Source: Alphaproteobacteria bacterium
Lineage (GTDB): Bacteria > Pseudomonadota > Alphaproteobacteria > UBA2136 > UBA6156
NCBI GenBank assembly: GCA_027483385.1
Contig: JAIXUT010000105.1
Coordinates: 1 to 44,825, forward strand
Direction of reading: 5' to 3'
DNA length: 44,825 nucleotides
Shown: positions 34,161 to 40,152 of the stretch, in pieces
How positions within the stretch are numbered: position 1 is the first letter of the stretch
Layout: each line of letters begins with the position of its first letter
The notes under the pieces: generated by a model
What the model saw: only the letters and a program-made list of their open reading frames with translations
What the model was told of the DNA's origin: nothing
The model's database searches: none
Position numbers and translations under genes: made by a program

Positions 34161-36002
34161 TTAATCGTGGCCGATAAAGCCCCCGCTCTGGCGGTTCCAG
34201 AGGTCGGCATAGATGCCGCCTCGTGCCAGCAGTTCAGCGTGGGTGCCGTCCTCCACAATCTGCCCTTTGTCCATCACCACCAGTCTATCCATTTGCGCGA
34301 TGGTGGAAAGGCGGTGGGCAATCGCGATGGTGGTTTTACCCGCCATCAAGGCCGTCATTTCTTCCTGAATCGCCGCCTCAACTTCGCTATCTAAGGCACT
34401 GGTGGCCTCATCAAGCAGCAGGATTGGTGCGTTTTCCAGAATCATGCGGGCAATGGCCACCCGTTGCCGTTGACCGCCCGAAAGCTTCACCCCACGCTCA
34501 CCCACCAATGCGGCATAGCCTTGGTTGCCGTACTTATCCTCGCACTTAAGGATAAAGTCGTGCGCATGGGCGCGTTTGGCTGCCGTAATAACTTCTTCAT
34601 CCGTGGCATCGGGTTTGCCAAGACGAATGTTATCAGCCACCGAGCGGTGCATCATATGGGCTTCCTGCGTCACCATGCCGATATGCTGGCGCAGGGAAGC
34701 TTGCGTGACGTGGCTGATATCCTGCACATCGATGGTGATAGAGCCGCTTTCCAAGTCGTAGAAGCGCAGCAGCAGATTCACCAGCGTGCTTTTGCCCGCC
34801 CCGCTCCGCCCCACCAGGCCGACTTTCTGGCCTGCTGGGATGGTGAGATTGAGGTTATGTAGTACACTTTTGCCGTGGGTGGCCTTTTTACCGTAGTGAA
34901 ACGAGACATTACGGAAAGCCACATCCCCGCCACCGGGCTTCACCACCAAGGCTTGGGCGTTAGGGGTGTCGATGACGGTGTAGGGTTTGGCCAAGGCTTC
35001 AATGGCATCTTCGACAGTGGCGATATTTTCCAGAAGGCGCACCGAGGTTTCGGCCACCCACCAGCTGAACGCAATGACTTGTGGCAGCACCGTCATTGCC
35101 ATCAGGGCTTCAGCCTTGCCGAACCATTCCTGCTGCCACCCATAGAACGTGAGCGCCATGATTGGCACGACTAGCAGAAACGTCAGCCCTGCCATCCCCA
35201 CCCACATGAGTTGAAAGTTGTGGTGGTTGCGCTGGCTGGCATCGGCAGCCTCTTGGGCTTTTTCCAGCAGGTAGTCGTCTTCATCCTTATCCCGTCCAAA
35301 GAGCTTGAGCAGCATGATGTTGGCGAAGCTATCCACCACCAACCCCGAGTTGCGGCTGTGCAGGTCGGTGGCGATTTTGCTGGTTGCCCGCTGAATTGGT
35401 ATCATCCACTTCAGAAAGCTGACATAGCCAATAAACCACACCACAAACACCACCAGTAGCACGGGGGCTACGCTGAATAGCAGCACCCCCGCGACCACCA
35501 ACGCCACCGCAAAGCCCCAAAAATGAATAATGGTGGCTTCGCAGATTTCGGTGACGGCATTACCGGTATCCTTCACCTTGCTGGCCAGTCGCCCAGCAAG
35601 GTCATCGGTGAAGAAACTAAGGCTTTGGGCCCGTGTGGCAGTGGCCATCTGGAAGCGAACGCGGTCGCGGAAGTGGACAAAGAACATTGGCCACGCCAGG
35701 TACCGCGCGCTTCTATCCAGCAAAGGTTGGGCGACGTAGAGCGTGAGCACCATTAGGCATAACAGAGTAAAGAGCTGTTCGGTGGTGACAGTTCCCGTTT
35801 GGTTGAAAACCCCCACTGCTTGGGCATAAAACCAAGGGGCAAGTTGCCCAAAGACGACACCTAGGCCGGCCAAGAACATGACAACGGCCATGGGTTTCCA
35901 AGCCTGCCTTGCAAAGTGCCACAGAAATGGCACCAGCTTATTGGGCAGTGGCACCAACCCTTGTGGGTGAGGCGCGACCGAAGTGAGTTTATAGTGCTTC
36001 AT
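34161..36002 (-). CDS. ABC exporter, fused membrane and ATPase domains (MsbA/multidrug type)
   Basis: About 613 residues. Six membrane helices in the first 330 residues, then the ATPase: Walker A VGLVGRSGAGKST (near 400), Q loop MVTQEA, signature KLSGGQRQRVA (near 507), Walker B PILLLDEATSALD, and H-loop IAIAHRL. Works as a dimer to export lipids, peptides or drugs across the inner membrane. Start is uncertain: ATG 36002 has GGAG seven bases upstream; ATG 36005 is adjacent, and ATG 36056 would add 18 residues. The leader (36003-36211) contains a small peptide frame and alternative hairpins, suggesting translation-coupled regulation. Substrate unknown. Confidence 0.88.
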   Translation of the reverse strand: MKHYKLTSVAPHPQGLVPLPNKLVPFLWHFARQAWKPMAVVMFLAGLGVVFGQLAPWFYAQAVGVFNQTGTVTTEQLFTLLCLMVLTLYVAQPLLDRSARYLAWPMFFVHFRDRVRFQMATATRAQSLSFFTDDLAGRLASKVKDTGNAVTEICEATIIHFWGFAVALVVAGVLLFSVAPVLLVVFVVWFIGYVSFLKWMIPIQRATSKIATDLHSRNSGLVVDSFANIMLLKLFGRDKDEDDYLLEKAQEAADASQRNHHNFQLMWVGMAGLTFLLVVPIMALTFYGWQQEWFGKAEALMAMTVLPQVIAFSWWVAETSVRLLENIATVEDAIEALAKPYTVIDTPNAQALVVKPGGGDVAFRNVSFHYGKKATHGKSVLHNLNLTIPAGQKVGLVGRSGAGKSTLVNLLLRFYDLESGSITIDVQDISHVTQASLRQHIGMVTQEAHMMHRSVADNIRLGKPDATDEEVITAAKRAHAHDFILKCEDKYGNQGYAALVGERGVKLSGGQRQRVAIARMILENAPILLLDEATSALDSEVEAAIQEEMTALMAGKTTIAIAHRLSTIAQMDRLVVMDKGQIVEDGTHAELLARGGIYADLWNRQSGGFIGHD

Positions 36003-36075
36003 CATAGGTCTCCAATGTATCAGCCCAGCAGCAGCGGGGCCAGAGTAAGGGTTCATGGGTAAGGAGAAATCTCCA

Positions 36076-36133
36076 ACCGAGTGAAACGGGAGCCCAGCGG
36101 GCCCGTTTGCTAATTTAGATTAGCGGGCTCGGT
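36076..36133 (-). promoter_or_regulatory. Candidate attenuator-like leader RNA with mutually exclusive stems (ABC exporter)
   Basis: Three stems can form a closed three-way junction: P1 ACCGAG/CTCGGT (36076-36081 with 36128-36133), P2 AAACGGG/CCCGTTT (36084-36090 with 36102-36108) and P3 GCTAAT/ATTAGC (36109-36114 with 36119-36124). A competing stem GAGCCC/GGGCTC (36090-36095 with 36125-36130) excludes P1 and P2. The stop codon of the leader peptide lies inside P3, so ribosome position would decide which fold forms. A further GGAG/CTCC hairpin lies at 36063-36074. Confidence 0.55.
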
Positions 36134-36211
36134 GGGAATGGAACGGCACACGCCAAACAGGCCAACCCATGTGGGGTGGCTGGTGGGTGTGATGGCGATA
36201 TAGTTGCTCAT
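36110..36211 (-). CDS. Putative 33-residue leader peptide upstream of the ABC exporter
   Basis: ATG at 36211-36209, TAG at 36112-36110 on the minus strand, 33 residues. It begins MSNYIAITPTSH, has WVGLFGV in the middle and ends EPANLN. A promoter match (TTGCAA-N17-TACACT) puts the transcription start about at this ATG, so it would be translated as a leaderless mRNA. Its stop codon lies in a stem of the attenuator-like RNA. Thr and Pro codons are frequent (four Thr, four Pro), which could make ribosomes pause. Not an identified family. Confidence 0.5.
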   Translation of the reverse strand: MSNYIAITPTSHPTWVGLFGVCRSIPTEPANLN

Positions 36212-36218
36212 GAAAACA

Positions 36219-36247
36219 AGTGTAGAATAGTTTTGTATGCATTGCAA
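36219..36247 (-). promoter_or_regulatory. Promoter for the ABC exporter leader transcript
   Basis: Minus strand: -35 TTGCAA (36247-36242), 17-bp spacer, -10 TACACT (36224-36219). Seven bases separate the -10 from the ATG of the leader peptide (36211), so the transcript would start at or next to that ATG. TTGCAA is palindromic and may also serve rightward transcription of fumC, though no good plus-strand -10 follows. Confidence 0.5.
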
Positions 36248-36309: not shown

Positions 36310-37758
36310 ATGAAAAAATCTTCCACACCTGCTCCGAAAGCCAACCCTCAAACTAAAACGCTAACACGTCAAGAGACCGACAGTATGGGTGCGGTGGCCG
36401 TGCCTGCCGACCGCTACTGGGCCGCGCAAACCCAGCGTAGCAAGGAAAATTTTCTGATTGGTGGCGAAGTCAGATTTAGTTTTACGCCCATGTTTATTGC
36501 GGGCTACGCGGCGCTCAAGCAGGCCTGTGCGTTGGCCAATGCCGATTTAAAATTGCTCGATGCCAAGTTGGCCAAGGCCATTTCTGCGGCGGCCGATGAG
36601 GTGCAGGCGGGTAAACTACAGGGCAACTTCCCGCTCGTGGTTTGGCAAACGGGCAGCGGCACGCAAACGAATATGAACCTGAACGAAGTGCTGGCGGGGC
36701 GCGCCAACGAAATGCTGACGGGCCAGCGCGGTGGCAAAGCCCCCGTGCACCCCAACGACCATGTGAACCGCGGCCAAAGCAGCAACGATACCTTCCCCAC
36801 CGCCATGCATCTGGGTGCGGCATTGGCGCTGCAGACCCAGGTGTTGCCTGCGCTTAAAGTTAGCCGTAAGGCGCTGGAAGCCAAGGCCACCAAGTGGCAG
36901 AAGATTCTGAAAATTGGCCGCACCCATTTGCAAGATGCCACCCCGATTACCTTGGGGCAGGAATTCGGTGCCTTCGCCGCCCAACTGGCCTACGCAGAAG
37001 CCGAAGTTAAGAAGGCTTTAGAAGCCCTGCTGCCCCTGCCACTGGGCGGCACGGCGGTGGGTACGGGCCTTAATACCCACACCAAAATGCCAGCCCTGGC
37101 GGCGAAGTATTTAAGCAAGCGCTTGGGTCTGAAATTCACCATTATGGAGAACAAGTTTTTTGGTTTAAGCGCGCATGAGCCGTTGTTGAATGCGAGCGCG
37201 GCGCTGCGGACAGCGGCGGTGGCAAGCTTGAAAATCGCCAACGATATTCGCCTGCTCGGCAGTGGCCCACGCTGTGGCCTGAATGAATTGAACCTTCCCG
37301 CCAACGAGCCCGGCAGCAGCATCATGCCGGGCAAAGTGAACCCTACGCAATGCGAGGCGCTTTCCATGGTCTGCTGCCAAATTATTGGCAACGATGCCGC
37401 CGTGTGCGCAGGCGCCATGCAGGGGCATTTACAGCTGAATGTGTTCAAGCCGCTCATCATTCATAACGTGCTGCAAAGCGCGCAGCTGTTGGCCGATGCG
37501 TTGGTTAGTTTTACCGAAAACTGCGTAGCCGGCCTGGAACCCAACCTGCCGCAGCTAGAGCGCCACTTGGCCAATTCCCTGATGCTGGTGACGGCATTGA
37601 ACCCGGTGATTGGCTACGACAAAGCCGCCGCCGTGGCCAAAAAAGCCTTGAAGGAAAACCTCACGTTGGAAGAAGCGTGTGTGAAGCTGGGGTACTTGGA
37701 TGCCAAGACTTTCCGCGCCAAGGTGCGGGCGGAAAATATGCTGCATCCTGATAAATAG
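36310..37758 (+). CDS. fumC: Class II fumarate hydratase
   Basis: 482 residues. Catalyses fumarate plus water to L-malate in the TCA cycle, as a cytoplasmic tetramer. Visible: WQTGSGTQTNMNLNEV, NRGQSSNDTFPTAMH, GRTHLQDATPITLGQEF (catalytic His near 204) and the signature GSSIMPGKVNPTQCEA with catalytic Ser (near 336). The first 20 residues are a Lys/Pro/Thr-rich extension before the usual RQETDSMG start, so a later start is possible but none fits as well. Iron is not needed by this class. It is followed by an AT-rich acetyltransferase gene. Confidence 0.95.
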   Translation: MKKSSTPAPKANPQTKTLTRQETDSMGAVAVPADRYWAAQTQRSKENFLIGGEVRFSFTPMFIAGYAALKQACALANADLKLLDAKLAKAISAAADEVQAGKLQGNFPLVVWQTGSGTQTNMNLNEVLAGRANEMLTGQRGGKAPVHPNDHVNRGQSSNDTFPTAMHLGAALALQTQVLPALKVSRKALEAKATKWQKILKIGRTHLQDATPITLGQEFGAFAAQLAYAEAEVKKALEALLPLPLGGTAVGTGLNTHTKMPALAAKYLSKRLGLKFTIMENKFFGLSAHEPLLNASAALRTAAVASLKIANDIRLLGSGPRCGLNELNLPANEPGSSIMPGKVNPTQCEALSMVCCQIIGNDAAVCAGAMQGHLQLNVFKPLIIHNVLQSAQLLADALVSFTENCVAGLEPNLPQLERHLANSLMLVTALNPVIGYDKAAAVAKKALKENLTLEEACVKLGYLDAKTFRAKVRAENMLHPDK

Positions 37759-37768
37759 AGTATTCGCC

Positions 37769-38203
37769 ATGGAAGCCTCTTTGTTTGTTATAAGAAGATT
37801 TAATGTTGTAGATTACTTTGCAATTACTAACCTTTATAAAAATGGTAGTTTATATGGTGGTGAATTTGATGAAGCACGCGATAGTCTTGAGATGATTCAA
37901 AAGAGTTTAGAGAGTGATCCTGATTCATTACTAGTGTGTGAGAAAGATGGTATCATTATAGGAACTTGTTCTTTGGTTGATAATGGCCGAGTCGCTTGGT
38001 TATTTAGATTTGCCGTATTAGAGGAATATTTAGATGCTGCAAAAGAATTATATCAATACGCAATTAATATTCTCTCTAAGCGTGGACATAAACAGGTCTT
38101 GGTTTACTCCGATCCAGAGAACCTAGAACTTTCGAAGAGGTATAATTTTTTAGGTATGACGCAAGGAGGCCTATATCGGTGTTTTTGGGTACAACTTAGT
38201 TAA
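37769..38203 (+). CDS. GNAT-family acetyltransferase, AT-rich
   Basis: 144 residues. GNAT-like layout: N-terminal RRFNVVDYFAITNLY, beta strands with LLVCEKDGIIIGTCSLV, WLFRFAVLEEY in the acetyl-CoA binding region, and the C-terminal QVLVYSDPENLELSKRYNF with GGLYRCFW. The classical Q/RxxGxG/A loop is poorly conserved. Base composition is much more AT-rich than fumC before it and the amidase after it, pointing to recent acquisition. The stop directly abuts the next ATG. Substrate unknown. Confidence 0.65.
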   Translation: MEASLFVIRRFNVVDYFAITNLYKNGSLYGGEFDEARDSLEMIQKSLESDPDSLLVCEKDGIIIGTCSLVDNGRVAWLFRFAVLEEYLDAAKELYQYAINILSKRGHKQVLVYSDPENLELSKRYNFLGMTQGGLYRCFWVQLS

Positions 38204-39749: not shown

Positions 39750-39761
39750 ATAGTCCCCTTG

Positions 39762-40152
39762 CAACGCATCCTGTAAGCCGGGTTCTGTGCTGCCTTACGG
39801 CAGTGATCATCATTCCTCTGGAACACAGGTTGCCCCGTGCCCTCAAGCTGCCGACCCGAACCTGTGCTGGACGCACGCCGCGCCACGAGCAGGTTCCTAT
39901 TTGGCATTGCACCCCTTGGCAGGTCGCCGTACCGCGCGTTGTTGCCAACGGCGTGGTGGGCTCTTACCCCACCGTTTCGCCCTTACCCCGGCCTTCTTGC
40001 GAAGGCTGAGGCGGTTTGTTTTCTGTTGCCCTGATGGTCGGCCCGCAAGGGAAGGGGCCGCCCCGCTGTTCACGGGCCAAGTGGCGTGTGGGTGCCCGGA
40101 CTTTCCTCGATCAATTTTTTCAAATTGACCGCGATGACCCGGATGCCGCCTC
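39762..40152 (-). ncRNA. rnpB: RNase P RNA (bacterial type A)
   Basis: On the minus strand the conserved GAGGAAAGTCCGGGC lies near the 5' end (about 40110-40096) and CAGAACCCGGCTTACAGG near the 3' end (about 39787-39770). GGCATCC (5' side) can pair with GGATGC (3' side) as P1, fixing the ends to within a few bases. This ribozyme trims the 5' leader of pre-tRNAs. Open frames on either strand here are not genes. Position next to mraZ is common in alphaproteobacteria. Confidence 0.95.

Follow-up and report, generated by a model that had tools for sequence, protein, structure and literature searches.

A conserved, putatively leaderless leader ORF upstream of an ABC-exporter gene in a freshwater alphaproteobacterium is probably a ribosome-dependent transcription attenuator

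The nearest working model for the leader analyzed here, and its experimental precedent, is the bmrB-bmrCD locus of Bacillus subtilis, with which (PMC4191407) it shares a leader ORF preceding ABC-exporter genes, an antiterminator and a terminator that exclude each other, and the ribosome as the sensor. Drugs that slow the ribosome favor the antiterminator in that system, and removal of the bmrB start codon lowers expression and abolishes induction (PMC4191407). The bmrB leader, however, is preceded by a 5' UTR and runs from a GTG start through 53 codons, its terminator lying within the reading frame (PMC4191407), whereas ours, in an alphaproteobacterium, has 33 codons specifying an unrelated peptide, appears to be leaderless, and carries its hairpin after the stop codon. 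In the streptococcal mef(E)/mel system (PMC4335068), a leader peptide and a Rho-independent terminator likewise precede an efflux operon and exert transcriptional attenuation; but that leader, MTASMRLR, possesses a consensus ribosome-binding site and is an 8-codon macrolide-stall peptide, unlike the one in the window. Sinorhizobium meliloti, also an alphaproteobacterium, has in trpL an attenuator ORF that is leaderless, transcription starting right at its ATG, although its 14-aa peptide has Trp codons and controls trpE(G), in contrast to our leader (PMC7298713). Among leaderless leader peptides associated with attenuation or exporters, only this trpL (PMC7298713) came close by title or abstract in the open-access literature, a coverage that does not prove absence; and, within that same literature, one Bacillus precedent is known to us for a multidrug ABC exporter under leader-peptide attenuation (PMC4191407). 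Within the Gram-negative bacteria, the PA5471.1 leader of Pseudomonas aeruginosa couples an efflux pump to ribosome stress by way of a peptide, as we propose for ours. That leader acts via an anti-repressor of an RND pump, unlike the leader in the window.

The window—the entire stretch of 44,825 nucleotides analyzed—is contig C29 of a draft genome, G000 (1.94 Mb, 89% complete), whose host is a freshwater alphaproteobacterium. We propose that the leader, whose features are collected in Table 1, is probably a ribosome-dependent transcription attenuator of the efflux gene, with ribosomes loading directly on the 5' AUG. The leader ORF lies about 107 nt upstream of the ABC exporter; the divergent fumC-type gene, whose score of 653.7 bits fell below the 664.75 cut-off, is adjoined by a GNAT-acetyltransferase ORF (37700–38203) that is AT-rich by eye. 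At or above the gathering score, Rfam returned for the whole window RNase P and two tRNAs only, the leader having no match; the class A RNase P RNA occupies the minus strand at 39759–40150 and is followed by a strong hairpin and seven T (39750–39733).

Table 1. Positions of the leader elements and neighboring genes in the window (nt, counted along the leader from its ATG).
Feature	Positions	Strand	Basis or occurrence
Promoter TTGCAA-N17-TACACT	36219..36247	-	Sequence; TTGCAA 36247–36242, 17 nt, TACACT 36224–36219, 7 nt, ATG 36211; same positions in 4/4 leaders
33-codon leader ORF, putatively leaderless, MSNYIAITPTSHPTWVGLFGVCRSIPTEPANLN	36110..36211	-	ATG at 36211, stop codon at 36112–36110; related ORFs in G001, G003, G008
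Conserved motif GVCRSIP, codons 20–26	36134..36154	-	GV[C/M]R[S/T/Y][I/L]P in 4/4 leaders
Hairpin inside the ORF, nt 21–65	36147..36191	-	Fold prediction
Antiterminator, nt 76–119, 5' end formed by the motif's CCC (proline) codon	36093..36136	-	Fold prediction
Small hairpin GCTAAT-CTAA-ATTAGC, stop codon inside	36109..36124	-	Fold prediction; G003: GCTAAC-CTAC-GTTAGC
Terminator-like hairpin, nt 104–128, short U tail	36084..36108	-	Fold prediction
Three-way junction, outer stem nt 75–84 with 131–140	36072..36137	-	Predicted in G000, G001, G003
Shine-Dalgarno GGAG of the exporter	36010..36013	-	Sequence
ABC exporter, 613 aa, membrane domain + ATPase	34161..36002	-	Domain match
Divergently oriented fumC-type gene (class II fumarate hydratase)	36310..37758	+	Profile match

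An earlier note on this DNA had placed the promoter seven bases from the ATG of the 33-codon frame, and there we found it. Its hexamers are weak, agreeing with the consensus at 8 of 12 positions by hand count, and a consensus-promoter scan of the window listed no promoter at the leader; but since the TTG, the 17-nt spacer, and the 7-nt gap to the ATG are kept in all four leaders that we identified, the hexamers rise above chance. No Shine-Dalgarno-like tetramer occurred in the 22 nt before the leader ATG in any of the four, unlike the exporters behind them, which have GGAG or AAGGA. The pattern TTG-N20-TA-N11-ATG occurred 92 times in G000 and 79 times in G007, versus 32 and 22 for a reversed-pattern control, an approximately threefold excess in two genomes of the family suggesting that leaderless starts are common in the lineage. 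On these sequence grounds the leader ORF would be leaderless, with transcription starting near the AUG.

Over the −35 box there is also a near-dyad, TTGCA-ATGCA-TACAA (36247–36233, minus strand), with one mismatch in G000, a possible operator. Were a DNA-binding protein at that dyad the main control, the leader would be a passive 5' region; the corresponding sequences of G001 (TTGTA-ATGCA-TACAA) and G003 (TTGCAT-TGT-ATGCAA) are indeed perfect inverted repeats, that of G000 lacking perfection by its single mismatch. We nevertheless judge this explanation unlikely: the same dyad spacing is absent in G008, six other one-mismatch sites in G000 share no common context, and the conserved ORF, the motif, and the two-state RNA would be left unexplained.

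The leader is present in 4 of the 18 genomes of the order, those of G001 and G003 having been found by a DNA search and that of G008 via an exporter search; G001 and G003 are of the same genus and G008 of another genus in the family, and four related sequences are too few for formal covariation. A short ORF stands immediately 5' of a transporter gene in all four, that gene encoding an ABC exporter in G000, G001, and G008 and an MFS transporter in G003. The leader lies opposite fumC in G000, G001, and G003; in G008 a different ORF is upstream on the leader contig, with fumC on a separate contig. A pattern joining the promoter to a loose form of the motif matched five times in the 18 genomes of the order (the four leaders and one chance occurrence) and, in 385 genomes of the class without G001, G003, and G008, at the window's own leader only; such pattern searches would miss more divergent leaders. 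A six-frame motif search through 520 kb of loci yielded the four leaders plus one chance ORF; the motif lay upstream in 3 of 30 loci of ABC homologs, two of the loci being searchable over just 104 and 71 bases; and a pattern scan of genome contigs gave 12 stretches, namely the leaders of G003, G008, and G001 and nine chance matches. The motif pattern alone returned 113 matches in the 385 class genomes besides that of the window, none of which, by eye, combined a start codon, a short ORF, and a hairpin in the manner of these leaders; in 23 of them a stop codon follows within 16 codons.

DNA matches across the class to positions 70–101 of the query were rejected as chance, their translated text marking them as antisense of ccmC. 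A second pattern match in G008 was rejected because it sits inside a longer open frame, presumably that of a release-factor-type protein, to judge by its GGQ motif.

The 520-kb motif search, with its four leaders and one chance ORF, and the 18-genome pattern search already make it unlikely that the ORF and stems arose by chance in GC-rich intergenic DNA. That explanation would accord with the weak hexamers and with a modest gain in overall fold stability (the whole 209-nt leader against shuffles: z = −2.06, 5/200), but set against four related leaders of fixed geometry we find it scarcely credible.

The leader peptides are MSNYIAITPTSHPTWVGLFGVCRSIPTEPANLN in G000, MSTFYVHITQPLPSWASGVAVGVMRSIPDQPKQ in G001, MSNYAACKHTPALWAGVFGVCRYLPIGPANLR in G003, and MDTKSTIGRHPLPAKGSNYGVCRTIPHRL in G008. 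Common to the four is GV[C/M]RxxP, followed by the stop codon and a GC-rich hairpin; inside the motif, third codon positions vary at V (G, T, A, T) and at R (T, C, C, A), the residues being constant. Between G000 and G003, 33 aligned codons comprise 11 that are identical, 8 with silent differences, and 14 with residue changes, and between G000 and G001 the corresponding counts over 32 codons are 6, 6, and 20; coding conservation beyond the motif is thus modest, which counts against the attenuator.

As to the RNA, the placement of the stop codon within a stem of a three-way junction, which the earlier note had proposed, was borne out in the folds predicted for G000 and G003 from the leader extended by 45 nt; the predicted fold of G001 contains the outer stem and the terminator hairpin, and in G008 the hairpin is accompanied by an outer stem that is weak, at 4 bp. 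The 3' strand of the junction's outer stem lies beyond the hairpin, so that this stem can form only after read-through. The same note's fourth, exclusive stem is real as a competitor, but its pairing is not GAGCCC/GGGCTC: the folding gives instead a longer antiterminator that starts from the CCC codon, encloses the small hairpin of the stop codon with the pairings CCCA/TGGG, CG/CG, and GCCC/GGGC, and is mutually exclusive with the terminator-like hairpin. In the other leaders, hairpins of different sequence are predicted at a place similar to that of nt 21–65. The GC hairpin, at which transcription would terminate under this folding model, is predicted in all four leaders. Two observations count against the attenuator: the U tail is short (UUUC) in G000 and G003—in contrast to the seven T behind the RNase P-adjacent hairpin—and a consensus-terminator scan of the window did not list the leader hairpin.

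The P site of a modeled ribosome was moved from codon to codon, and for codon k the RNA was left free to fold from nt 3k+13. In G000, G001, and G008 the fold changed from antiterminator to terminator as the P site passed from the V of the motif to its C (M in G001), because in each of the four leaders the pairing of the antiterminator starts with the CCC proline codon (in G008 at the second C of that codon); G003 stayed near the terminator at all ribosome positions, so that the switch, by folding only, is clear in three leaders and marginal in the fourth. The antiterminator/terminator energies were −19.8/−16.5 (G000), −15.2/−11.0 (G001), −16.1/−12.9 (G008), and −21.1/−22.7 kcal/mol (G003), and the full-length preference of G003 for the terminator counts against the attenuator. 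Without a ribosome the terminator probability was 0.02 in G000, 0.00 in G001, 0.01 in G008, and 0.82 in G003; and when the RNA was free from the codon after the proline rather than from the proline codon itself, the terminator-hairpin probability went from 0.01 to 0.82 (G000), 0.00 to 0.82 (G001), 0.01 to 0.92 (G008), and 0.75 to 0.93 (G003). With the RNA free from the proline codon, the antiterminator was the minimum-energy fold of the RNA, as its 3' end was extended stepwise, until the hairpin was nearly complete in all four leaders and beyond that point in three, and varying the 3' end by 2 nt left the switch position unchanged.

The jump in probability was reached, per 1000 dinucleotide shuffles between the proline codon and the hairpin, by 7 (G000), 34 (G001), 4 (G008), and 54 (G003), and per 1000 synonymous recodings by 1, 167, 42, and 165, respectively, its frequent survival of recoding in G001 and G003 counting against the attenuator; the full pattern (no ribosome, before the motif, after the motif) was given by 5, 21, and 16 of 300 upstream shuffles and by 34, 41, and 39 of 300 synonymous recodings in G000, G001, and G008, the G003 leader itself failing that test; and as the statistics were picked after the folds had been seen, and the leaders are related, none of these figures is a clean probability. 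At codons well before the motif the terminator probability varied, peaking at 0.54 (G000) and 0.90 (G001), so that some early stalls would lack a clear on state. A ribosome at the stop codon, moreover, would cover the hairpin, so that for termination to occur it would have to leave rapidly or pause ahead of that codon.

Sequence and folding together display a conserved leaderless geometry, a GV[C/M]RxxP peptide, and two exclusive structures balanced by the exposure of CCC. Under free translation, the ribosome would enter the motif and hide the CCC at the start of the antiterminator, upon which the GC hairpin would form and transcription stop, leaving the exporter off; were the ribosome absent or stalled before the motif, the antiterminator would form first and the polymerase would reach the exporter. 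The likeliest signal would be generally impaired translation, as by a ribosome-targeting drug. The four conserved loci, the putatively leaderless peptide, the exclusive stems, and the exchange of an ABC for an MFS transporter all fit a ribosome-mediated efflux attenuator, and to that extent the attenuator suggested in the earlier note holds up; its proposed threonine or proline sensing does not, since there is no conserved run of a single codon and the peptides differ outside GV[C/M]RxxP.

The ribosome footprint is uncertain by about one codon, which puts the decisive stall at the C or at the R. With that latitude an arginine codon stands at the decision point of all four motifs, as attenuation by limitation of Arg, Cys, Trp, Thr, or Pro might require; but G001 has Met in place of the Cys, G008 has no Trp, runs of a single codon are absent, and the downstream genes are for transporters and not for biosynthesis, all of which makes amino-acid attenuation very unlikely in our estimation. 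More specific, and in our view a tentative possibility, is a peptide-directed arrest, a special form of the attenuator in which GV[C/M]RxxP itself would halt the ribosome, constitutively or upon binding of a ligand; a stall with the P site at the V would keep the exporter on, and one at RSI-P would keep it off. No part of the peptide other than the motif is well conserved, the motif lies no more than a codon away from the structural switch point in three of the four leaders, and its R-x-x-P is reminiscent of SecM; yet the CCC codon also serves the RNA pairing, a need that explains part of the motif's conservation without recourse to the peptide.

For the general attenuator, the bmrB comparison carries one discrepancy: blocked translation lowers expression there (PMC4191407), versus the on state that the folding predicts here for an absent ribosome, which counts against our proposal; if that start-codon result were valid for our leader, the on state, too, would require translation, contrary to the folding. 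If the attenuator is true, a leaderless version of this logic, reused before ABC and MFS pumps in uncultured alphaproteobacteria, would show that it arose or spread separately. It becomes testable, too, that leaderless leaders may let a cell tell initiation-blocking from elongation-blocking drugs; kasugamycin is reported to spare leaderless mRNAs. More speculatively, GV[C/M]RxxP might define a new family of leaderless sensor peptides in which the motif-end codon is also the first antiterminator codon, so that a single ribosome step would decide, the cassette standing before unrelated exporters and reporting the failure of leaderless (70S) translation.

The exporter of the window passed no NCBIfam cut-off among those shown, and the solved structures nearest to it in sequence belong to ABCB-type transporters, Sav1866 ranking lower; it is, on these grounds, a putative drug exporter. 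A partial exporter at C198:1–579 of G000, cut by the contig end, is 69% identical to that of the window and is, by sequence, likely its paralog.
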